Assembly: GCF_023897065.1 (NCBI RefSeq)
Contig: NZ_JAMHIV010000037.1
Location: 1 to 64,000, forward strand
Source: Crossiella sp. SN42
Lineage (GTDB): Bacteria > Actinomycetota > Actinomycetes > Mycobacteriales > Pseudonocardiaceae
Direction of reading: 5' to 3'
DNA length: 64,000 nt
The notes beneath the pieces are model-generated. The model searched no databases. It saw nothing but the letters and a program-made list of their open reading frames with translations, and was not told the origin of the DNA. Of this stretch, positions 1,349 to 55,231 are shown piece by piece. Both the position numbers and the translations under genes were made by a program. Numbering within the stretch: position 1 is the first letter of the stretch; each line of letters begins with the position of its first letter.

Positions 1349-1405
1349 ACGGACAGTTCAGCGAGGCCCGGGGAACCGTTGGCGGCGGGGTGTCCCGGGC
1401 CTCGC
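1339..1405. terminator. Double hairpin, bidirectional terminator region
   Basis: Two perfect inverted repeats lie between the convergent chitinase and TetR genes. The first pairs ACTGTCC (1339-1345) with GGACAGT (1351-1357) and holds the chitinase stop codon in its loop. The second pairs GCGAGGCCCGGG (1361-1372) with CCCGGGCCTCGC (1394-1405), a 12-bp stem with a 21-nt loop. There is no U-tract, which is usual for high-GC actinobacterial terminators. Confidence 0.65.
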
Positions 1406-1416
1406 GCCCTCTGTCA

Positions 1417-2025
1417 TCAGGACAGGGGCGCGCGCCAGCCCCGCGTGTGCGCTTCGAGCGCGCGCAGGTAGCTCTCCGCCGGCTCCGGTCCCGGCAGCAG
1501 CCGTCCGCCCAGCTCCAGGCTGACCAGGCCGTGCACCAGGCTCCACACCGAGTTGGCCAGTTCCTCGGCCGGAGCCGCCGCGAACACGCCCTGCTCGACG
1601 CCCCGGCGCGCCGCCGTCAGCAGCGGCGCCAGCGCGGCGGTGGCCGCCTCGGCGGTCTGCTCGTCCGGCTCCGGCACACCGAACAGCGCCGGGTACAGGT
1701 GCGGATCGGCCAGCGCGGCCGCCCGGTAGGCCAGGCCCAGCTGGACCAGGTCCCGCGCGGGGTCCTCGGTCACCGGCACCTCGGCCAGCCGGTCGCCGAA
1801 GCGCCGGAACGCGTCCAGGAACAGCTCGCGGAGCAGCCCCGGCTTGCCGCCGAAGAGCGCGTAGACCGCGGTGGTGGAGGTGCCCACGTCCTGGGCCAGT
1901 CCGCGCAGCCCGAGTGCGCTGGGGCCGCGGGAGGCGAGCAGGCGGGCCGCCCGGTCGAGCAGCTTCTGCCGGAGGGTTTCGTCGTGCGTCTTCGGCCGAG
2001 GCACCGCGCAATCGTACCGGAACAC
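1417..2025 (-). CDS. TetR/AcrR family transcriptional regulator
   Basis: A 202-residue one-component repressor. The N-terminal helix-turn-helix covers about residues 16-60 (LLDRAARLLASRG, then DVGTSTTAVYALFGGK), the typical TetR DNA-binding core; the C-terminal half resembles the WHG-type ligand domain, with the TxxNSVWSLVHGLVSLELGG helix pattern. The start used here is GTG at 2025; an in-frame GTG at 2004 would give 195 residues and is also plausible. A GTTATGTAAC palindrome lies immediately upstream of the GTG (2027-2036), suggesting autoregulation at a leaderless or near-leaderless promoter. Its target is not evident; the divergent neighbour is a toxin-antitoxin pair. Confidence 0.88.
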   Translation of the reverse strand: MFRYDCAVPRPKTHDETLRQKLLDRAARLLASRGPSALGLRGLAQDVGTSTTAVYALFGGKPGLLRELFLDAFRRFGDRLAEVPVTEDPARDLVQLGLAYRAAALADPHLYPALFGVPEPDEQTAEAATAALAPLLTAARRGVEQGVFAAAPAEELANSVWSLVHGLVSLELGGRLLPGPEPAESYLRALEAHTRGWRAPLS

Positions 2026-2057
2026 TGTTATGTAACCTGAATGGACGTATCTGACCT

Positions 2058-2076
2058 CTGGTTATGGTGATACCAG
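2058..2076. promoter_or_regulatory. Candidate operator of the RHH antitoxin
   Basis: An inverted repeat CTGGT (2058-2062) / ACCAG (2072-2076) lies 18 bases ahead of the RHH antitoxin ATG, in a locally AT-richer stretch. RHH antitoxins normally bind such short palindromes to autorepress their operon. Assignment is by position only. Confidence 0.35.
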
Positions 2077-2094
2077 ATCGGTACCATCCCCCGC

Positions 2095-2301
2095 ATGGCC
2101 ATGACGCTGAGGCTGACCGAAGAGGAGAATCGGCAACTCGACGAGCTAGCCACCGTCGAGGGCCGCTCCAAACAGGAAATTGTGCGACTCGCGCTGGCCG
2201 ACCGGTGGTCGCGGTTGCACAAGGAACAACAGCTCTCCGACGCCCTGGAACGTGTTCTTCCCCGCTATCGGGGATTGCTGGAACGGCTCGGCTCGACCTG
2301 A
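2095..2301 (+). CDS. Ribbon-helix-helix antitoxin (CopG/Arc type)
   Basis: A 68-residue protein with the RHH pattern: a short N-terminal strand (MAMTLRLTEEE) followed by two helices (ENRQLDELATVEG and SKQEIVRLALADRW). It would bind DNA as a dimer and neutralise the downstream Doc-like protein through its C-terminal tail. It lies 21 nt upstream of that gene on the same strand, the usual antitoxin-first order. No clear ribosome-binding site precedes the ATG, so a leaderless mRNA is possible; ATG 2101 is an alternative start. Confidence 0.75.
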   Translation: MAMTLRLTEEENRQLDELATVEGRSKQEIVRLALADRWSRLHKEQQLSDALERVLPRYRGLLERLGST

Positions 2302-2322
2302 TTTTCTGGTATCTCCTGGCTA

Positions 2323-2709
2323 GTGATCACTTATCTGGATGCCAGCGACCTGCTCGTGCTGGCCACCGCGGTCACTGGCGGTGACCTCGTGGTGCGCGAT
2401 GTCGGGCTGCTGGACTCCGCCGCGCACCGACCCCGCGCCGCGGTGCTCGGCGTCGAGGCGTACGCGACGCTCTGGTTGAAGGCCGCCGCCCTGCTGGACT
2501 CCATTGTTCGGACCCGCCCGCTGCTGGAGGGGAACTGGCGCCTGGGCTGGGTCGCCGCGGTGACTCTGTGTGACATCAATGGTTGGTGGATCGACGCCGA
2601 CGAGGACGAGGCGCTGGACATCGTCCGCGATCTGGGCCGTGGCCTGATCGAGGTTTCTGAAGTGGCCGACCGCCTGGAGGAGTGGGCCACGGCCAAGGAC
2701 GAGGACTGA
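2323..2709 (+). CDS. Doc/Fic-family toxin with degenerate motif
   Basis: A 128-residue protein with the overall layout of actinobacterial death-on-curing toxins: ITYLDASDLL start, LVVRDVGLLDSAAHRPRA helix, AYATLWLKAAALLDSIVR, then the Fic-loop region. Family members carry H-(A/P)-x-x-(D/x)-G-N-K-R there; this one reads R65-P-L-L-E-G-N-W-R73. The catalytic-position His is Arg65 and the Lys of GNKR is Trp72, although Gly70, Asn71 and Arg73 remain. Doc proteins phosphorylate EF-Tu; loss of the His position suggests reduced or altered activity, or a decayed toxin. The start is GTG at 2323. It is paired with an RHH antitoxin rather than the Phd type of phage P1. Confidence 0.7.
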   Translation: MITYLDASDLLVLATAVTGGDLVVRDVGLLDSAAHRPRAAVLGVEAYATLWLKAAALLDSIVRTRPLLEGNWRLGWVAAVTLCDINGWWIDADEDEALDIVRDLGRGLIEVSEVADRLEEWATAKDED

Positions 2710-2733
2710 TTCGGACCCGTTCGGGCTTTCGGG

Positions 2734-2764
2734 TTGACCTGGAGTGCACTCCAGCTCCTACGGT
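2734..2764 (+). promoter_or_regulatory. MerR-type promoter with 19-bp spacer and palindromic operator
   Basis: A -35 box TTGACC (2734-2739) and a -10 box TACGGT (2759-2764) are separated by exactly 19 bp, the over-long spacer typical of promoters activated by MerR regulators through DNA distortion. A perfect 16-bp palindrome CTGGAGTGCACTCCAG (2739-2754) fills the spacer. The expected start point, 7-8 nt after the -10 box, coincides with the GTG codon at 2772, implying a leaderless transcript for the merR-aldo/keto reductase operon. Confidence 0.75.
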
Positions 2765-2771
2765 CGAAGAC

Positions 2772-3169
2772 GTGAGCTACTCCATCGCCCAGGCGGCCGA
2801 GCGCAGCGGACTCTCGGTCGACACCCTGCGGTACTACGAGCGCATCGGCCTGCTCGACCCGCCCGCCCGGGACTCCGGCGGGCGACGGTCCTACTCCGAG
2901 GACGACCTGGGCTGGCTGGGGTTCCTCACCAAGCTCAGGCTGACCGGCATGCCCATCCGGATGATGCGGGAATATGCCCAGCTCCGGCACCGCGGCGCGG
3001 CCAGCTACGGCAGGCGCAAGGCGATCCTGCTGGAGCAGCGCACCTCGGTCCGCGAGCGCATCGCCGAGTTGCAGGCCTGCCTGGACGTCCTGGACTACAA
3101 GATCGAGCACTACGACCAGATCGAGCGGCAGATGACCGCCGCCGACCTGATCCACGAGGAGGCGACCGC

Positions 3170-45980: not shown

Positions 45981-46011
45981 TTGACCTCCACCGCACTGGA
46001 GATCCGATCGT
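45981..46011 (+). promoter_or_regulatory. MerR-like promoter of the questin-oxidase-family gene
   Basis: TTGACC (45981-45986) is followed after 19 bp by GATCGT (46006-46011), and an inverted repeat CTCCA (45986-45990) / TGGAG (45997-46001) lies in the spacer. The ATG at 46018 begins 7 nt after the -10 position, again implying a leaderless transcript. Layout closely parallels the promoter at 2734-2764. Confidence 0.5.
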
Positions 46012-46017
46012 GGGCAG

Positions 46018-47058
46018 ATGACTTCTGACCTGGACAAACTCCTGGAAAGCCTGGAACTGCTCGCGGGCACCGGGGCCGAGCGCCGCGGCTACCTGGCCAA
46101 CCACGGCCCGATGGCGGCCGAAGCGCTGGTCGCCCTCGGCGTGGCCGGGGCCGCTCCCGGCTGGACCCGGCTCTACCGGCCGATCCTGGAACCCGAGCCG
46201 CCGGAGCGGTTCCGGCTGGACGCGGCGGACTGGCGGGAACACCTCGGCGACCTCAGCCGGCTCGGTGACTGGACCGCGCTGTTCCGCCGCGAGCTGGCCG
46301 AGCGGGACTGGCTGGAGGTGCTGCGCGCCTGGTGGCCGCGGCTGCTGCCCGGACTGGCCGCCAGCGCCACCCACGGGGTGATCCGCACCGCGCACGGGGT
46401 CCGCGCGCTGACGCTGGCCGGACCGCACCCGATGCTGGTGGACGAGCTGGCAAAGGGCCTCGGCTTCTGGGCCGCCCGCTACCAGGAGCTGCCCGGCTCA
46501 CCCGCGCTGCGCGGCCCGGACCCGCTGGGCGTGGCCATCTCCCGGCTGCCCCGGCTCACCCCGGACCAGATCGGCCACGGCGGTGGCATCAGCGGCGACC
46601 TCGCGCACCTGGACGGGTTGGCCGGGTTCGCCGAAGGGCTGGACCGCTACGGCGCACCGGAAGCCCCCGACGCGGTGCTGGACGAGCTGATCAGCGCCGC
46701 CGCCAGGGTGTTCCTGGCCCGGCCGGACGCGCCGATCGAGTTCTGCCACGCGGTCACCGGGCCTGCCGCGGTCCGGCTGGTGCTGCCGCACCTGCCCGCC
46801 GAGTTCGCCGCGCCGGCGGTGGCCGCGTCCTGGCAGGTGGTCGGCGGCATCGTGGCCGCGTTCTCGCCGGAGCGGCTGGACGGGCTGGACGTGGTGCTGG
46901 CGGAGCCGCCGGTGGCGGAGACGCTGGTGGAGCGGGCGGTGGCCTCCGGGGACGCGCACGTGATCAAGCTGACCGAGGCCGCCTTCCGCGAGCACGCCCG
47001 CACCGGTGACGCCGCCCTGCTGCATGCCGCCTACGCGATGGCGGACCGCTGGCCCTAA
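46018..47058 (+). CDS. Questin oxidase-family protein (DUF4243)
   Basis: A 346-residue protein of the questin-oxidase-like family. The family region LANHGPMAAEALVALG at the start and ATHGVIRTAHGVRAL near residues 118-132 are recognisable. Named after fungal Baeyer-Villiger-type enzymes, bacterial members have unknown substrates and are presumed oxygenase-like or structural homologues. The ATG at 46018 is probably leaderless. It converges on the sigma-CAP gene, the ends overlapping by 4 nt (47055-47058). Confidence 0.8.
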   Translation: MTSDLDKLLESLELLAGTGAERRGYLANHGPMAAEALVALGVAGAAPGWTRLYRPILEPEPPERFRLDAADWREHLGDLSRLGDWTALFRRELAERDWLEVLRAWWPRLLPGLAASATHGVIRTAHGVRALTLAGPHPMLVDELAKGLGFWAARYQELPGSPALRGPDPLGVAISRLPRLTPDQIGHGGGISGDLAHLDGLAGFAEGLDRYGAPEAPDAVLDELISAAARVFLARPDAPIEFCHAVTGPAAVRLVLPHLPAEFAAPAVAASWQVVGGIVAAFSPERLDGLDVVLAEPPVAETLVERAVASGDAHVIKLTEAAFREHARTGDAALLHAAYAMADRWP

Positions 47059-48431
47059 GCGCGGCCGTAGATCACGGTCCAGTAGTAACCGCACTCACCG
47101 CCGACCACCCGGCTGACGCCCACCGAGCGCAGGTCGCAGCGCAGCGCCGGTGAGTCGCCGTCCGCGACCGTGGGCGCCATCTCCCTGGCCGACTCCCTGG
47201 AGGCGGCCACGTAGGCGCCCGCGGTCCGCTGGTAGCCCGCCGCCCTGGCCCGCTCCTCGACCGAGGTGCCGTCCGGGCCGGTCATGCCGATGTAGTTGTG
47301 CTTCATCATGTCCGCGCTGTGCTGGCGGGCCGCGGTGGTCAGCCTCGGGTCCTGGCGCAGCGGCTGGCAGCCAGCGGCGGACCGGCGCTCGTTGATCAGC
47401 ACCGTGAGCTGTTCGCCCGGACCGGCCGGGGCGGGGGTGGTGGTGGTCGGGCTGGGTTTCGGGCGGGTGGTCGAGGTCGGCGGGGTGCTGCTGCTGGGCG
47501 GGGGCGGCGTGGTCGTGGCGGGTTCGACGGTGGTGGTCGTGGTGCTGGTCGCGGGCGCGGGCGGGGCGGCCTGCGGCGGCTGGACCGGGTGCGGCAGCAG
47601 GTAGTAGCCCAGGCTCAGCGCGGCGGCCAGCGCGACCGGCACGGAGGCCTTGAACGCCATCGAGTGCCCGGCGTGCACCGGCAGCAGCGCCGGGTGGTCG
47701 GCGGGCACCGCGGCGGCGAACAGCGCGCCCAGCACGGCCAGCGGCCTGGTCAGGCGACCGGCCAGGTCCCGGCACTGCGGGCAGCGGCGCAGGTGCCGGT
47801 CCACGCTCATCCGCTGCGGCAGCGACAGCGAGCGCGGCTTGCCGGGCACCAGCTCGGCCAGCCGGGGGCAGCGGCGCGGGTTGCGGGCCAGCAGCAGCAT
47901 CCGGACCGCGTTGCCCAGCGCGGAACGGGCCCGGTGGGCGAGCACCGCGGCGTGGTTCGCCCGCACGTCCAGCGCCTCGGCCAGCTCGGTGCCGGAAAGA
48001 CCTTCCCGCACCGTCAGCTCCAGCACCGCGAGCTGCCGCGGCTCCAGGCTGGCCGCGGCGTCCCAGACCAGCCGGGCCGCCTCGTGCGCGGCCGCGGCCT
48101 CGGCGGGGGAGGCCTCGCCGGCGACCAGCTCGGGCAGCTCCGGCATCAGCGCGGGACCCGGCTTGCGCAGGTGGTCCAGCGCGGCGCGGTGCGCGATGCT
48201 CACCAGCCAGGGCCGGAAACGCTCGGGTTCGCGCAGGTCAGCGAGGTTGCGCAGGGCGGTGACGAAGGCTTCCTGGGTGATGTCCTCGGCCAGGTGCCCG
48301 TCCCTGGCCAGCCGCAGCACGAAGGCGAACACCGAGGGCCGGTGCCGGGCGTAGAGGGTCGCGAACGCCTGGCCTGCACCGGCCGCGGCCGCGCGGACCA
48401 GCTCCGCGTCAGTGGGTTCCTGGGTCTGCAC
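47055..48431 (-). CDS. ECF sigma factor fused to zinc-finger, transmembrane and CAP domains
   Basis: A 458-residue chimera. Residues 12-90 are sigma region 2 (VFAFVLRLARDGHLAEDITQEAFV), 120-180 region 4 (LTVREGLSGTELAEALDVRANHAAVLAHRARSAL, split here for reading), then a ZAS-like motif H213-x3-C217-x2-C220 with C188 upstream. A transmembrane helix follows at about 262-280, then a Thr/Pro/Ser linker (290-337) and a CAP/SCP-type extracellular domain (338-458). That domain keeps one His (His371 in ARQHSADMM), but the second-His SPGHR motif seen in the neighbouring CAP protein is missing. The GTG at 48431 is chosen for its GGAGG and its match to the sigma fold. The design predicts a membrane-held sigma factor that senses an external signal and needs release, or acts at the membrane. 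Confidence 0.85.
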   Translation of the reverse strand: MQTQEPTDAELVRAAAAGAGQAFATLYARHRPSVFAFVLRLARDGHLAEDITQEAFVTALRNLADLREPERFRPWLVSIAHRAALDHLRKPGPALMPELPELVAGEASPAEAAAAHEAARLVWDAAASLEPRQLAVLELTVREGLSGTELAEALDVRANHAAVLAHRARSALGNAVRMLLLARNPRRCPRLAELVPGKPRSLSLPQRMSVDRHLRRCPQCRDLAGRLTRPLAVLGALFAAAVPADHPALLPVHAGHSMAFKASVPVALAAALSLGYYLLPHPVQPPQAAPPAPATSTTTTTVEPATTTPPPPSSSTPPTSTTRPKPSPTTTTPAPAGPGEQLTVLINERRSAAGCQPLRQDPRLTTAARQHSADMMKHNYIGMTGPDGTSVEERARAAGYQRTAGAYVAASRESAREMAPTVADGDSPALRCDLRSVGVSRVVGGECGYYWTVIYGRA

Positions 48432-48482
48432 GAGCGGGGCCTCCGGACGCGAGTGCCAAACCTTTCCCGGACTTTTCGGGTC

Positions 48483-48510
48483 AGACCGTAATCCCTCCGG
48501 GCGATTTTCC
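48483..48510 (-). promoter_or_regulatory. ECF-type promoter candidate for the sigma-CAP gene
   Basis: On the minus strand GGAAAA (48505-48510) and CGGTCT (48483-48488) are separated by 16 bp, resembling the GGAAC-N16/17-CGTC promoters of ECF sigma factors. Located 52 nt ahead of the GTG at 48431, it would allow autoregulation. Confidence 0.4.
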
Positions 48511-48522
48511 GTCCTCCAGATG

Positions 48523-48560
48523 AGTGGCTGGGCCCGCACCCCTGCTCGGGCCCAGCCACT
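48523..48560. other. 14-bp hairpin between divergent sigma-CAP and CAP genes
   Basis: AGTGGCTGGGCCCG (48523-48536) pairs perfectly with CGGGCCCAGCCACT (48547-48560) around a 10-nt loop. It lies upstream of both genes, so it is not an ordinary terminator; possible roles are a promoter-proximal attenuator of the CAP gene or a protein-binding cruciform. Confidence 0.6.
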
Positions 48561-48596
48561 GCCCGTATCCGGCAACCCGGAAGGACCCCTGGACTA

Positions 48597-49352
48597 GTGA
48601 CCGCGCATGAAGGGAGCACACGGTGGCGGCGGAACCGGATGACCATCGGCGTGCTGGCCGCCGTGACGGCGGGAGTGGGTGTGGCGGCATGGCTGACCAC
48701 ACCGACGCCCTCGCCCAAGCCACTGGCGGCTCCGGTGCCCCTCTCCGCCGGCATCATCGACCCCGGTTCCGGCGTGGGTGGCCCTGCCCCGTCCGAGTCC
48801 GCCGAACCGACTGAGACCAGCACCACCAGCGCCGAACCCAGCACCAGCACGAGCAGCAGCACCACCACGACCACCACCAGCGCGACACCCACCCCCACCA
48901 GCGCCAAGCCGACCACCAAGCCGCGCCCCAGCACCACCACGCCCAGCCGCACCCCGAACCCGCCGCCCGGGGACGCCGCCGAGCAGGCCGTGCGCGCGCT
49001 GGTCGACGCCGAGCGCGCGAAGGCGGGCTGCGCCGCGCTGCGCTGGGACGACCGGCTGGCCACCGCGGCCCGCAAGCACAGCGCGGACATGGCCACCAAG
49101 AACTACTTCTCGCACACCTCCCAGGACGGGCGCTCCCCGTCCGACCGGGTCAAGGCCGAGGGTTACCCCGGCGGCGCGGGGGAGAACATCGCCGCAGGTC
49201 AGAACAGCCCGGAAGCGGTGATGAAGTCCTGGATGAACAGCCCTGGGCACCGGGCCAACATCCTCAACTGCGGCTACCAGGCGATCGGTGTCGGCCTGCA
49301 CAAGGGCGGCAGCTACCGCTTCTACTGGACCCAGAACTTCGGCTTCAGCTGA
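48597..49352 (+). CDS. Secreted/anchored CAP-domain protein
   Basis: A 251-residue extracytoplasmic protein. After a short basic cytoplasmic stretch, a signal/anchor helix (MTIGVLAAVTAGVGVAAWL) leads to a 90-residue Ser/Thr/Pro linker and a CAP/SCP domain (about 130-251). The domain carries RKHSADMATKNYFSHTSQDG, GENIAAG, SPGHRANILNCGYQAIGVGL and the final YWTQNFGF. Both cavity His residues (in ARKHS and SPGHR) are kept, unlike in the sigma-fused CAP domain encoded divergently. Such YkwD-like proteins are of unknown enzymatic role. The start is GTG 48597 after GGAAGGA. Confidence 0.88.
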   Translation: MTAHEGSTRWRRNRMTIGVLAAVTAGVGVAAWLTTPTPSPKPLAAPVPLSAGIIDPGSGVGGPAPSESAEPTETSTTSAEPSTSTSSSTTTTTTSATPTPTSAKPTTKPRPSTTTPSRTPNPPPGDAAEQAVRALVDAERAKAGCAALRWDDRLATAARKHSADMATKNYFSHTSQDGRSPSDRVKAEGYPGGAGENIAAGQNSPEAVMKSWMNSPGHRANILNCGYQAIGVGLHKGGSYRFYWTQNFGFS

Positions 49353-49387
49353 CCGGCCGCTCACCTGGGTTTTCGTACACTGTCCGG

Positions 49388-50269
49388 GTGCGTGACTGGG
49401 ACGATCAGGCGCCCGCGGAACGGCCCCCGCTGGACGCTGAAGGGCTGCGCGAGAAGCTCGCGCGGCCGGGCGGGCCGTACGCGGCGCTGGAGGTCGTCTC
49501 CTGCACCGGATCCACCAACACCGACCTGGTCGCCGCCGCGCACTCCGGCGCGGCGGACCGGACGGTGCTCATCGCCGAGACCCAGACCGCGGGCCGGGGC
49601 CGCAACCAGGACCGGCAGTGGTTCTCCCCGCCCAGGGCCGGGCTGTACCTGAGCGTGCTGCTCCGGCCGGCGGGCGTGCCCTTCCCGCGGCTGGGCTGGC
49701 TGGTGATGCTGGCCGGGGTGGCGGTGGTCAACGCCATCGGCGACCTGTGCGAGGTGCAGGCCCGGCTGAAGTGGCCCAACGACCTGCTGGTCGGCCCGGA
49801 CCTGGCCAAGTGCGGCGGCATCCTGGCCGAGGTGGTCACCGGCGCGCCGGAACCGGCGGTGGTGCTGGGCATCGGCGTGAACGTGCACCACACCAGGGAG
49901 GAGCTGCCGGTCGGGCCCGGCGGGCTGCGGCCGACCTCGCTCGCGCTGCAGCAGGCCGCCTGCCTGGACCGGCAGCTCATCACGGTGCGGCTGCTGGAGG
50001 AGCTGGCCAGGGCCGAGGCGCACTGGCGGGCCGCCGAGGGCGATCCGAGCCGGTGCGGACTGGCCGGGGACTACCGCTCGGCCTGCGCGACCCTGGGCAA
50101 GCAGGTCAGGGTCGAGCTGCCGGGCGGGGTGAACCTGAACGGCTTCGCCAGCGACGTGGACCTGGACGGCAGGCTGGTGATCCGCACCACCACCGGCCAG
50201 CTGAAGCCCGTTTCCGCAGGTGACGTCGTGCACCTGCGGCCGGTGGCACCGCAAGGTGTGGCCGGATAG
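49388..50269 (+). CDS. birA: Biotin-[acetyl-CoA-carboxylase] ligase
   Basis: A 293-residue ligase that activates biotin with ATP and attaches it to the carrier lysine of AccA3. The catalytic core shows CTGSTNTDLVA, the biotinyl-AMP loop QTAGRGRNQDRQWFSPP, LKWPNDLLVG and VVLGIGVNVHHT, then a C-terminal SH3-like domain ending VVHLRPV. There is no N-terminal HTH, so it is a group I ligase without repressor function. It starts at GTG 49388. It is next to the PH-domain gene, as in Rv3279c-Rv3278c. Confidence 0.94.
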   Translation: MRDWDDQAPAERPPLDAEGLREKLARPGGPYAALEVVSCTGSTNTDLVAAAHSGAADRTVLIAETQTAGRGRNQDRQWFSPPRAGLYLSVLLRPAGVPFPRLGWLVMLAGVAVVNAIGDLCEVQARLKWPNDLLVGPDLAKCGGILAEVVTGAPEPAVVLGIGVNVHHTREELPVGPGGLRPTSLALQQAACLDRQLITVRLLEELARAEAHWRAAEGDPSRCGLAGDYRSACATLGKQVRVELPGGVNLNGFASDVDLDGRLVIRTTTGQLKPVSAGDVVHLRPVAPQGVAG

Positions 50270-50352
50270 GGTCCGTCGCTCCCGTACGGCGCCGTCGTGC
50301 GCCGGTACCGTGATCGTCGACCGAACGGTGTGCCATTCCTGGAGGAAGTGCC

Positions 50353-50883
50353 GTGGCCTATCCGGACGACCTGCTCGCGGACAACGAGCACGTCGTGGTC
50401 CACAAGCATCCGCACTGGAAGACGCTCATCCTCCCGGTGCTGGTGCTGCTGGTCACCATCGGGCTCTGCCTCTACCTCGCCGCCCTGGTCCAGGACCTGA
50501 GCTGGGCGAACACCGGCTGGATCGTGCTCGGCTGCCTCGGCGGCCTGGTGATCATCGTGTTCGTGCTGGTGCCGCTGGTGCGCTGGCGCTCCACCCACTT
50601 CGTGGTCACCACCCAGCGGATCATGGTCCGCGAGGGCGTGATCACCCGCAACGGCATCGACATCCCGCTGTCCCGGATCAACAGCGTCCGGTTCAAGCAC
50701 GGCCTGCTGGACCGGGTGCTGGGCTGCGGCACCCTGATCGTGGAATCCGCCTCGGACGAACCGCTGGAGTTCGACGACATCCCGGGCGTGGAACGCGTGC
50801 ACACCCTGCTCTACCGGGAGGTCAACGATGACCCTGAGGACGACTTCATCCGCAACCGGCCGCCGCGCGAGGAAGGCCGCTGA
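50353..50883 (+). CDS. PH-domain (bPH2/DUF304) membrane protein
   Basis: A 176-residue protein with two transmembrane helices (LILPVLVLLVTIGLCLYLAAL and WIVLGCLGGLVIIVFVLVPLV) followed by a bacterial PH domain (STHFVVTTQRIMVREGVITRNGIDIPL, with SRINSVRFKHG and GCGTLIVESA). It ends in an acidic tail. This family often follows birA in actinobacteria. The start is GTG 50353 with GGAGGA upstream; the stop overlaps the ATG of the HMG-CoA lyase gene by 1 nt. Confidence 0.88.
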   Translation: MAYPDDLLADNEHVVVHKHPHWKTLILPVLVLLVTIGLCLYLAALVQDLSWANTGWIVLGCLGGLVIIVFVLVPLVRWRSTHFVVTTQRIMVREGVITRNGIDIPLSRINSVRFKHGLLDRVLGCGTLIVESASDEPLEFDDIPGVERVHTLLYREVNDDPEDDFIRNRPPREEGR

Positions 50884-51852: not shown

Positions 51853-52512
51853 GTGACTCCGGAGACGCACTGGCTGGACGGGTTCCCGTTGCTGGCCTGG
51901 AAAACCGAGCGCCCGTGGCTGGCCATCTCCTCCGCGGTGCTCGGCGGCGGCATCGGCGAACGCAACTGGGTGCTCAACGCCACCGTGCCCACCGGCTACG
52001 ACCGCACCGACCCGGAAGTCCACTGTGGACAGATGGCGGCGCGGATCGGCTTGTCCGGCAACGGCACCGCGCTGCTGACCGCGGTGGACGTGCGGCACGC
52101 GGTGCACAGCGCGAGCGAAGGGACCAGGGTCACCGCGACCACCGGGGTCGGCCAGCCGGTGTGGGCGGCCTCGGCCGAACCGCTGGTGTGGCGGCCGCCG
52201 CCGGGCACCATCAACGTGGTGGGCCTGCTACCGGTGCGGCTGACCGAGGGCGCGCTGGTGAACGCGGTGGCCACGGTGGCCGAGGCGAAGGCGCAAGCGT
52301 TGGCGCAGAACGGGATCGAGGGCACCGGCACCTGCACCGACGCCACCGTGCTGCTCTGCCCGGCCGACGGCGAGGCCGAACGCTACGGCGGGCCGAGGTC
52401 GCTGATCGGCTCGGCGCTGGCCCGCGCGGTGCACACCGCGATCACCGAGGGACTGCGGATTCCGGCCAGTCAGGCCAGGTTCAGGGCCGGGGGAGCTCGG
52501 TCCGGCTGCTGA
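51853..52512 (+). CDS. cbiZ: Adenosylcobinamide amidohydrolase, CbiZ family
   Basis: A 219-residue protein of the CbiZ family, which removes the aminopropanol arm of adenosyl-(pseudo)cobinamide so that imported corrinoids can be remodelled. Recognisable parts are the start WLAISSAVLGGGIGERNWVLNATVP, the central GTALLTAVDVRHAV and TTGVGQPVWA, then GTINVVGLLPVRLTEGALVNAV and GTCTDATVLLCP. It starts at GTG 51853, 20 nt after the HMG-CoA lyase stop. No other cobalamin gene is in the window. Its 3' end overlaps the convergent LAL gene by 32 nt. Confidence 0.85.
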   Translation: MTPETHWLDGFPLLAWKTERPWLAISSAVLGGGIGERNWVLNATVPTGYDRTDPEVHCGQMAARIGLSGNGTALLTAVDVRHAVHSASEGTRVTATTGVGQPVWAASAEPLVWRPPPGTINVVGLLPVRLTEGALVNAVATVAEAKAQALAQNGIEGTGTCTDATVLLCPADGEAERYGGPRSLIGSALARAVHTAITEGLRIPASQARFRAGGARSGC

Positions 52513-55231
52513 TGCCGAGCTTGCGGTAGGCGCTGCTCAGGTGCAGCTCCACGGTCCGGCGCACCACGAACAGCCGGGCCGCGATCTCCCGGTTGCTCAG
52601 CCCGAGCGCGGCCAGGTTGGTCACCCGCAGCTCGGTCGGCGTCAGCGACTCCAGGCCGCTGTGCGCCTGCCGCCGCGGCCGCGCGCCGGAGACCCGCAGC
52701 TCGGCCCGGATCCGCCGGTCCACCACGGTCGCCCCGCACTGCTGGGCCAGCGCCCCGGCCAGCCGCAGCTGCTCGCGGGCCTCGGCCAGCTGGTTGGTCT
52801 TGCGCAGCGCGGTGCCCAGGTCGGCCAGCGCGCGGGCCTGCTCCAGCGGGGCCTGCGCCTCGGCCAGCACCCTGGCCGCCTCGCGCAGCAGCTCCACCGC
52901 CGCGCTGCCCCTGGCCAGCACCCCGGAGACGCGCAGCGCCGCGCCGATGGCCTGCGGACTGCCCCAGGAGCGGGCCAGCGCCAGCTCCTCCATGGCCAGC
53001 GCCTTGGCCGTGCCCAGCCTGCCCAGCGCGGCCAGGCCGATCGCGGCGGCTGAGCGCCAGGGCACCACGGCCGGGTTGGACATCCGCCAGGCGTCCAGCC
53101 TGCGGCCCGCGCACAGCAGGTCCTCCACGCCCTCGGCCGCGGCGCCGGTGGCGATCCGCAGCCGCCCGCGCCCGGCCAGCAGCCAGGCCCCGGCCAGGCC
53201 GCCGGGCAGGTTGTCCGCGGCCAGCACCTCCTCGTAGAGCCGGTGCGCGCCCTCCACGTCCCCGGTCTCGGCGAGCGTGTCGGCCAGCCGGGTGGCCGCG
53301 GTCACCGCCAGGCCGTGCGCGTACCGGGGGCCGAACCGGACCAGGGTGTTCAGGCAGGCGCGGGCGTCCTCCCGGCACTGGGTGAGCCTGCCCAGCCGGT
53401 AGCCCACCTCGGTACGCACGGCCAGCGCGAACGCGGTGTCCGCCGGCGAGCTGGCCTGCTCGAACAGCAGCTCGGCCTGCCCGGCCGCGGCCTCGTTGGC
53501 CCCGGCGATGGTCAGCGCAAGCGCGGTCGCCGGGGCCAGCGAGGCCCGCGCCCAGTCGTGCACCCGGTCCCGGTCGGTGCCGGCCAGCACCGCGCGCACG
53601 CACCACAGCACCGGCGGCAGCTCCCGCTCCGGCTGCGGGGTGAACCGGGTGGCCGCGGTGGAGGAGTGCAGCAGCGCCAGCAGCGCCTCGCCCACCAGCA
53701 GCGCCTCGGCCACCGCCGGGTCGGCGCACTGCTCGCGCACCTCGGTGAGCACCCGCAACCCGTCCTCGTGCCTGCGGCTCAGGCACAGCAGCCCGGCCAG
53801 CTGGCGGGCGATCTCCTTGCGCTGCACCGGATCCGCGCTCACCGTCAGCGCCCTGCGCAGCGCGGCCACCGCGCCCGCCACGTCCAGGTGGCTCAGCGCC
53901 GAGCCCAGCCGGACCAGGATCGCGGCCCGCTGCCGGTGGTCGAGCTGCTCGCGCAGGGCCGCGCGCAGGTAGCGCACCGCGTGCCCGGTGCGGCCGGCCG
54001 CGACCGCCTCGGTGGCGGCCAGCTCCAGCACCTGCGCCGCCCAGGACTCGCCGAGCGGCCCGGCCCGCAACAGCTCCGCGCCCACCCGCTCCGCGCCCGC
54101 GCCGCGCGCGTGCAGCAGCCGGGCCGCGCCACCGTGCACGTGCTGGCGCGCCTCCTGGCTCAGGTCCGCGGCCGCGGCGGCCCGCACCAGCGGCTGCCGC
54201 AGCGCCACCTGGTCACCGCGCCAGCGCAGCAGCCCGGCCTCGGTGAGCGCGTCGGCCAGCCGCGCGGCCCGGTCGGCAGGCAGGCCGCGGATGGCCCCGG
54301 CCAGGTCCAGCTCGACCTCCTCGCCCAGGGTGGCCAGCGTCCCGGCCAGCTCGCTGGCGCCCGGTGCCAGCTCGGCCAGCACCAGCCGCAGCCAGCTCAC
54401 GATCTCCCCTGGCGGGCGCTCCAGCAACGCGCGCACCGTGCTCACCGTCGGCGGCGTGCCGGACTGCCGCAGCCCGCGCAGCAACGCGTGCACCAGGAAC
54501 GGGTTGCCCGCGGTGGCCGCGTGGCAGGCCGCGCCGACGCCCTCGGCCACCGGCACGCCGAGCACCGCGCCCGCAATCGTGGTCACGTCCGGGATGGACA
54601 GTCCGTCCAGGACGATGTGGTGGGCGAACCGGCCGGCCAGGTCGGCGGGCCAGACGTCGGCGGGCGCGGTGGTGCCCAGCACCAGCACCCGTTCGCCGCC
54701 GATCCGGCGCAGCAGGTAGGCCAGCCAGCGGGCCGAGGCCGCGTCCGCCCAGTGCAGGTCGTCCACCGCGATCACCAGCGGCCGCTGCTCGCTGAGCCCG
54801 ACCGCGACCCGGTACAGCTCCTCCACCGCGTCATAGGGCAGGTAGCGGGTCTCGTGCCTGCCCAGCGAGCGCACCGCGGCCGCGGGCACGCCGGCCCGGC
54901 CGCCCGCGCTCACCGAGGTCAGCTGCCTGCCCCAGTCGAGTTCATTGCTGAGCAAACGTTCGGAGAACAGCTGACGCAGCAGGCACAACGGGAAGTCCGC
55001 CTCCCAGCGGTCCGCGCTCGCGGCCAGCACCAGGTCGCCCGCGGCCCGCGCGCGGGCCAGCACCGCCCGCAGCAGAGCGCTCTTGCCGGCCCCGGCAGGG
55101 CCGCGCAGCAGCGCGCTGGTCCCGTGGCCGGAGTGCGCCAGGGAGAGCAGCTCGTCGACCGCGTTCAGCTCGACCGCACGTCCGACGAGATCCACCCACT
55201 CCTCTTTCTCTTCACGGGTCGCCTTCAGCAT
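52481..55231 (-). CDS. LAL-type LuxR regulator with AAA+ ATPase domain
   Basis: A 916-residue large ATP-binding regulator. It has a Walker A GPAGAGKS (44-51), Walker B LVIAVDDLHWAD (about 151-162), a long TPR-like helical middle, and a C-terminal LuxR HTH (LTPTELRVTNLAALGLSNREIAARL and VELHLSSAYRKLG). LAL proteins usually activate secondary metabolism or catabolic loci in response to a ligand. It diverges from the thiol-redox cassette at 55415, the most likely target. Confidence 0.9.
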   Translation of the reverse strand: MLKATREEKEEWVDLVGRAVELNAVDELLSLAHSGHGTSALLRGPAGAGKSALLRAVLARARAAGDLVLAASADRWEADFPLCLLRQLFSERLLSNELDWGRQLTSVSAGGRAGVPAAAVRSLGRHETRYLPYDAVEELYRVAVGLSEQRPLVIAVDDLHWADAASARWLAYLLRRIGGERVLVLGTTAPADVWPADLAGRFAHHIVLDGLSIPDVTTIAGAVLGVPVAEGVGAACHAATAGNPFLVHALLRGLRQSGTPPTVSTVRALLERPPGEIVSWLRLVLAELAPGASELAGTLATLGEEVELDLAGAIRGLPADRAARLADALTEAGLLRWRGDQVALRQPLVRAAAAADLSQEARQHVHGGAARLLHARGAGAERVGAELLRAGPLGESWAAQVLELAATEAVAAGRTGHAVRYLRAALREQLDHRQRAAILVRLGSALSHLDVAGAVAALRRALTVSADPVQRKEIARQLAGLLCLSRRHEDGLRVLTEVREQCADPAVAEALLVGEALLALLHSSTAATRFTPQPERELPPVLWCVRAVLAGTDRDRVHDWARASLAPATALALTIAGANEAAAGQAELLFEQASSPADTAFALAVRTEVGYRLGRLTQCREDARACLNTLVRFGPRYAHGLAVTAATRLADTLAETGDVEGAHRLYEEVLAADNLPGGLAGAWLLAGRGRLRIATGAAAEGVEDLLCAGRRLDAWRMSNPAVVPWRSAAAIGLAALGRLGTAKALAMEELALARSWGSPQAIGAALRVSGVLARGSAAVELLREAARVLAEAQAPLEQARALADLGTALRKTNQLAEAREQLRLAGALAQQCGATVVDRRIRAELRVSGARPRRQAHSGLESLTPTELRVTNLAALGLSNREIAARLFVVRRTVELHLSSAYRKLGISSRTELPRP

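Follow-up and report, generated by a model that had tools for sequence, protein, structure and literature searches.

In the genome of Crossiella sp. SN42, a soil actinobacterium, one open reading frame joins an extracytoplasmic function (ECF) sigma factor to a zinc-binding anti-sigma motif, a membrane segment, a Thr/Pro-rich linker and a degenerate CAP domain, and a divergent neighbor encodes a second, intact CAP protein. The fused gene (47055..48431, reverse strand, 458 residues) and its partner (48597..49352, forward strand) lie in the window, by which we mean the whole 64,000-nucleotide stretch analyzed here (positions 1 to 64,000 of contig NZ_JAMHIV010000037.1, assembly GCF_023897065.1). 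A first-pass annotation made from the letters alone had described this pair of genes, and the observation as a whole was confirmed. We lean, with moderate confidence, toward the reading that the pair constitutes a self-contained envelope-sensing module, in which a membrane-tethered sigma factor inhibited in cis would be released upon a signal received by its CAP domain and would then transcribe the partner gene.

Inspection of the fused gene reveals an open frame without interruption from 47055 to 48575 (reverse strand; stop codon 47055-47057), where the likely start, which we assume, is the GTG at 48431. A sequencing, frame or assembly error, considered as another account of the joined frame, is ruled out by the recurrence of the same single chain in 13 genomes. 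Pfam matches follow one another along the chain in the order Sigma70_r2, Sigma70_r4_2, zf-HC2 and CAP (4.4e-12), the last of which bears out the CAP domain named in the first-pass annotation. Sigma-70 region 2 covers residues 26-90 (48162..48356, reverse strand; PF04542, 1.4e-18, above cut-off) and matches the region 2 fold of SigW and sigmaE, while region 4 covers residues 121-172 (47916..48071, reverse strand) with a match slightly below cut-off (Sigma70_r4_2, PF08281, 3.4e-5). The NCBIfam model TIGR02937 spans both at 77.3 bits versus a cut-off of 42.9. The sigma part consists of regions 2 and 4 without region 3, as expected for an ECF sigma factor, and its fold match likewise spans both domains.

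Downstream of the sigma regions lies a motif of the zinc-binding anti-sigma (ZAS) type, C188-x24-H213-x3-C217-x2-C220 (47772..47870, reverse strand). A ZAS domain is defined by four zinc ligands, an upstream Cys or His followed by H-x3-C-x2-C, and all four positions are unchanged in the eight aligned fusions (8/8), which upholds the anti-sigma element of the first-pass annotation as a putative four-ligand domain. The zf-HC2 match in the chain falls below its cut-off (0.0021; 18.5 bits, cut-off 22.2), the rows of the fold search lie mainly within residues 4-181 and hardly cover the zinc part, and the C..H-x3-C-x2-C pattern is found in distant relatives too. A probable single membrane helix at residues 262-280 (47592..47648, reverse strand; Kyte-Doolittle 1.51) is followed by the Thr/Pro-rich linker at residues 286-338 (47418..47576, reverse strand), where residues 288-338 alone (51 residues) include 17 Thr and 16 Pro and where the predicted local distance difference test (pLDDT) score is below 50 across most of the linker. 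The chain ends in the degenerate CAP domain at residues 339-458 (47058..47417, reverse strand), in which three of the four pocket residues are lost and the Cys pair is retained. CAP is the sole Pfam family above its own cut-off in the C-terminal part, which has no carbohydrate-binding domain of the kind found in ECF52, and a CAP fold is confidently predicted in the structural model. Sigma factor, zinc domain, membrane helix (identified by hydropathy only) and extension are united in one frame, the plan of single-chain membrane ECF factors. The chain would probably cross the membrane once with the CAP domain outside, a topology compatible with the linker and with the conservation of the Cys pair.

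The two CAP domains differ in the residues of their pocket. Parts of PMC7340583 describe a His-Glu-Glu-His cluster in the pocket of CAP proteins, and we examined it in an alignment of 41 CAP domains (13 fused, 14 partner and 14 other domains; for the last group, the tree used 13 of the 17 loci L098-L114, leaving out L101, L104, L105 and L110). The first His is present in 13/13 fused domains. At the other three pocket positions, H in YFSH, Glu in GEN and His in PGHR, the residue is retained in 0/13 in every case. All four pocket residues are present in 14/14 partners and 14/14 others, with the second position of the pocket taken as His in the partner test according to our own reading of the alignment. 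By these residues the fused domain would not class as a putative active-site CAP, whereas the partner would. The earlier statement that the His of SPGHR is missing from the fused domain and kept in the divergent protein therefore extends to every fusion and every partner aligned; of the active/sensor pair built upon it, the residue pattern stands, and the activity of the partner goes as far as its residues may suggest. The Cys pair is present in 41/41 domains, and the fused domains further keep the Ser after the first His (13/13) and the motif GG-x-C-x-[YF]-Y-W (13 sequences).

Phylogenetic analysis places the fused domains in one clade (support 99/98) and the partners in another (94/86), and the fused clade does not fall inside the partners; the program flags long branches, that of G226 in particular. 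In 77 of 78 genome pairs the fused domains resemble each other less than the partners do (means 0.534 versus 0.704). Identity between fused and partner domains is 0.361 within genomes and 0.356 between genomes, and duplication or conversion between the two is unsupported, given these equal identities and the separate clades. The divergence of fused and partner domains is correlated (Spearman 0.65). In the one genome pair on which the ratio of nonsynonymous to synonymous substitution rates (dN/dS) rests, G000/G187, values were 0.21 for the sigma part, 0.20 for the zinc part, 0.29 for the linker, 0.42 for the fused CAP and 0.35 for the partner CAP; the pair G020/G013 (sigma 0.19, CAP value undefined) was left out. 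The partner itself combines an N-terminal hydrophobic segment (score 1.91), a Thr/Pro/Ser linker and a complete CAP domain (48999-49340; PF00188, 7.3e-30). An identification as DalA by NCBIfam was not used, at 77.6 bits versus a cut-off of 200.

A profile of the fused CAP domain was searched in 390 genomes of the family, where the fusion is present in 13 (E<=4.9e-49) and the next best match, at 5.2e-28, is an unfused CAP gene. The fusion occurs in Crossiella (5/5 listed), Actinokineospora (7/16) and Kutzneria (1 of at least 6 genomes), and the fear that it might be absent from related genomes is unfounded. In all 13 genomes a second CAP match lies on the opposite strand ~1.8-1.9 kb away, so that the survey proposed by the first-pass annotation returns a divergent CAP gene beside every fusion. 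A profile of the sigma and zinc parts recovers 14 orthologues (E<=4.6e-112); in the fourteenth, G011, the contig ends within the linker and the partner CAP is present (L010). Flanking genes differ at the three loci checked, being questin-oxidase-like, carboxyl transferase and biotin ligase genes in the window, ankyrin and Tex genes at L005, and FAD oxidoreductase and GH20 genes at L011. Profile A3 returned only the window's own fusion from 394 class genomes (E<=1e-32), and the sigma part, A4, returned only the window and G982, which carries a PASTA domain, from 396 phylum genomes (E<=1e-50); both searches covered sampled genomes under strict thresholds, from which absence elsewhere does not follow. 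A motif screen for sigma regions at 18 other CAP loci of the family (L098-L114 and L002) gave no sigma fusion.

An ECF-type promoter-like element, CGTAAT-N17-CGTCC (48487..48514, forward strand), faces the partner gene and is conserved in the pair genomes. It is directly preceded by a conserved block, TCAGAC (48481-48486, forward strand), and the whole occupies 48481-48514. CGTAAT-N17-CGTC was present with the same spacing at all nine loci first inspected (the window and L004-L011) and is exact in 13/14 pair-bearing genomes, these nine loci included; CGTAAT-N17-CGTCC has a single site in the window's 9.7-Mb genome. Uniqueness was assessed in 22 genomes, 14 with the pair and 8 Actinokineospora without it. 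The longer pattern GACCGTAAT-N17-CGTC has a single exact site, at the pair, in 12/14 of the former (the exceptions being G186 and G226) and none in the latter (0/8). In shape the element resembles promoters read by ECF factors, for instance sigma X and sigma M of Bacillus. With this shape and its 17-base spacer, it may be read by the fused sigma factor. A simple pattern scan for an ECF-like promoter on the strand facing the sigma gene found none.

One Actinokineospora genome, G010, carries an eroded, degenerate sigma orthologue of 324 codons without a fused CAP domain (L132, frame 1668-2639, forward strand). No partner CAP motif was seen within the 4 kb fetched around it, and the element is changed to CGTAGT...CGGCC, with both cores damaged. 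In this single case, the whole unit appears to decay together.

These observations suggest the following sequence of events. The zinc anti-sigma domain would hold the sigma factor of its own chain inactive in cis at a membrane tether, and the Thr/Pro linker would reach into the cell wall and place the pocket-less CAP domain there for binding or sensing. A signal from the wall that acts on the fused CAP domain, or its loss, would lead to a proteolytic cut at or near the membrane; conformational release would be a less likely outcome of the same trigger. The freed sigma regions 2-4 would then drive transcription of the divergent gene from CGTAAT-N17-CGTC, and more intact CAP protein would be secreted to act on the wall or feed back on the fused domain. 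What the sequences show is the architecture and its conservation, the residues lost and retained, and a nearly unique promoter-like element that is missing or damaged in genomes lacking the pair. Inhibition in cis, topology, reading of the element by this sigma factor and the signal are inferred, as is cleavage by a membrane protease, which is drawn from IutY and from the proposal for ECF52. The envelope-sensing reading leans on the 13/13 pairing amid differing neighbors, the invariant zinc ligands, the element, the joint decay in G010 and the dN/dS values. It also draws on SCO4117 (ECF52), an analog with the same plan for which proteolytic release has been proposed, and on a structural prediction. 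The modeled sigma part (residues 1-240; predicted template modeling score 0.69) superposes over both domains with anti-sigma-bound ECF factors 5wur (root-mean-square deviation 2.9 over 152 residues), 4cxf (2.5 over 150) and 5uxx (3.1 over 152), and polymerase-bound factors 9m9e, 6koo and 6tyg deviate by 21.7-27.4 in rows spanning both domains.

Several observations pull in the other direction. SigG1 (7qh5), titled without an anti-sigma factor, also matches the sigma model (2.8 over 141), the anti-sigma-bound 4nqw fits badly when the two domains are taken together (8.9 over 142), and 1or7, 6in7 and 8z6g align to region 2 only. The less confident full-length model is unlike the inhibited arrangement, deviating by 10.6 from 4cxf, 13.7 from 4nqw, 17.3 from 1or7 and 17.7 from 6in7. 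That is to say, the compact sigma model, which is given without inter-domain error, is weak evidence for cis inhibition. Hydropathy of the window chain shows two modest segments, 232-250 and 262-280, of equal strength (1.51 each), which leaves the topology unproven, since two helices would place the CAP domain inside; in seven relatives the downstream segment scores 1.73-1.93 and the upstream segment 1.40-2.02. For the membrane stretch of G000/G187, dN/dS is 1.24, an unreliable value from one pair over 57 codons with a dS of 0.10. As for the element, G186 has CCTCC instead of CGTCC, so that its -10 core carries one mismatch, and G226 deviates ahead of CGTAAT, reading GGGCGTAAT. Conservation of the element could also have a second cause, since it may overlap the promoter of the sigma gene itself.

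The element might instead serve another sigma factor or regulator while the fused sigma factor controls other genes, which we regard as unlikely. Recognition of the element by the fused sigma factor is conjectural, and the conserved stretch upstream, TCAGACCGTAAT, exceeds a typical -35 element in length. Across the 22 genomes, sites of the longer pattern with one mismatch also outnumber the backward control (71 non-pair sites versus 24), so that further targets are possible, a point that counts against the envelope-sensing reading as well. Such sites are about equally frequent with and without the pair (48 in the 14 pair genomes and 23 in the 8 pair-less genomes) and for this reason were not counted as targets; set against a separate regulator is also the confinement of the exact element to the pair in 12/14 genomes and its absence from all eight pair-less ones. 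Were the fused CAP a decaying remnant without a sensing role, a mere anchor or spacer, its loss of three of four pocket residues in 13/13 genomes and its lower similarity across genomes than that of the partner, in 77/78 genome pairs, would be in keeping with that. The invariant Cys pair, first His and adjoining Ser, together with the GG-x-C-x-[YF]-Y-W motif, the dN/dS of 0.42 (one pair) and the confidently modeled fold all argue otherwise, and we consider a mere remnant quite unlikely.

The manner of release and the identity of the signal invite two further alternatives. The chain could act at the membrane uncut, with a ligand opening the sigma/zinc domain and RNA polymerase being recruited there. 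No protease site was identified in the chain, and sections of PMC8999054 describe C-terminal extensions acting by conformational change in ECF41 and ECF238. The same sections do not describe those examples as membrane chains, and they present IutY as the sole experimentally characterized extension acting by proteolysis; moreover, most of residues 228-335 of the fused chain has a pLDDT below 50, through which a conformational signal would be hard to transmit. We consider an uncut chain quite unlikely. A stronger form of the envelope-sensing reading makes the fused domain the receptor for the partner CAP, or for a product made by it, in a closed loop gauging the partner in the wall. The 13/13 pairing, the joint loss in G010, the shared CAP fold and the restriction of the exact element to the pair in 12/14 genomes speak for such a loop, which we entertain tentatively. 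Nearly equal identities within and between genomes give no sign of exchange, the two domains form separate clades with the fused one not branching inside the partners, and the correlated divergence (Spearman 0.65) needs no cause beyond the common history of the species, all of which speak against it. Equally doubtful, although not implausible, is a dedicated sigma factor with one main target, which would sense the cell surface through its pocket-less CAP receptor, control a single secreted intact CAP protein and read back the level or product of that protein.

The claim of an undescribed system has to be narrowed, since the single-chain plan of sigma factor, zinc domain and membrane segment is described for ECF48, ECF52 and ECF53 (PMC8999054, PMC5826349, in part). 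Sections of PMC8999054 present these as single chains with a zinc domain and membrane helices for which proteolytic release is expected; ECF48 and ECF53 resemble the fused chain in having one or two helices and in occurring in Actinobacteria. The words CAP, SCP and PASTA are absent from that review of non-canonical ECF factors. SCO4117 (ECF52) of Streptomyces coelicolor comprises a sigma factor, zinc finger, membrane region, proline-rich stretch and C-terminal binding domain, with release by proteolysis proposed (PMC5826349, in part). It shares its plan with the fused chain and ends in a carbohydrate-binding module instead of a CAP domain, and its proposed promoter motif, CSGYN-17bps-SRHA, is unlike CGTAAT-N17-CGTC. 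The terms "CAP domain" and "divergent" are absent from that text, where "SCP" is the name of a plasmid. IutY (ECF243) of Pseudomonas putida likewise unites a sigma factor and membrane anti-sigma factor in one chain and is activated by intramembrane proteolysis, but it serves iron-starvation surface signaling, and the section on it in PMC8999054 mentions neither a zinc domain nor CAP. In SigW-RsiW (5wuq/5wur), unlike the fused chain, the anti-sigma factor is a separate protein, and the bacterial CAP/SCP structures 4ifa and 4d53 bear titles that mention an extracellular protein and an outer surface protein but not a sigma factor.

Relatives of the fused sigma factor carry other ectodomains, and several share the same kind of zinc motif. 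The best match to the sigma/zinc profile outside the window among the 396 phylum genomes, L138 (G982; frame 1378-3030, forward strand; E 4.9e-67), has a similar sigma/zinc part and, by reading, a hydrophobic stretch and long Thr/Pro tail, with PASTA (PF03793, 1.7e-17; 63.5 bits, cut-off 23.2) in place of CAP. L014 carries SdrD_B slightly above its cut-off (30.8 bits versus 29.7), SH3 in L016 and Ig-like (Big_13) in L131 are weak matches below cut-off, and the C-terminal parts of L012 and L013 have no Pfam match. Also by reading, L127, L128, L130, L131 and L133, from other genera of the family, are single-chain sigma factors alike in linker and C-terminal domains, and L013, L014 and L016 (named as Anaerolineales/Chloroflexi/Anaerolinea) and L012 (Dormiibacterota) show the single-chain plan outside Actinobacteria. 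In the literature searched (titles, beginnings of abstracts and term counts), no paper treating a sigma-CAP or sigma-SCP fusion was found. Because the chassis is known and its relatives bear other ectodomains, the new parts are the CAP ectodomain and the paired intact CAP gene.

A short way downstream of the promoter-like element lies a perfect inverted repeat (48523..48560, forward strand), which would fold into a hairpin within the 5' leader predicted for the partner mRNA. The hairpin is more stable than expected (z -4.04; equally stable shuffles 0/200), has its sole copy in the genome at this site and is kept in 5/5 Crossiella, where its outer pair changes from A-U to G-C in one. None was seen by eye in the intergenic sequences inspected from Actinokineospora or Kutzneria, and an Rfam scan of 46000-50500 at gathering scores gave no match. 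In Crossiella, the partner transcript is predicted to begin with this strong hairpin. Elsewhere in the window, a questin-oxidase-like gene (46018-47058, forward strand; PF14027, 1.2e-9) converges on the sigma-CAP gene with a 4-base overlap at its end, and a frame of 916 residues (52481-55231, reverse strand) by reading resembles a large ATP-binding LuxR-type regulator.

To our knowledge, the role of bacterial CAP proteins is largely unknown. Here, a CAP protein is tied to what may be its own sigma factor, and the unit adds a sister domain resembling a receptor and a promoter-like element that has been conserved. If the receptor loop is true, the pair would form a closed CAP-receptor/CAP-effector circuit, a kind of circuit not described in the literature searched. 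The relatives suggest that the single-chain sigma chassis may accept interchangeable ectodomains (CAP, PASTA and SdrD_B and, weakly, SH3 and Ig-like), which would make it a possible natural blueprint for sensing at the envelope. For the organisms that carry the pair, a reporter placed on the element could reveal when, and what for, the cell makes its CAP protein.

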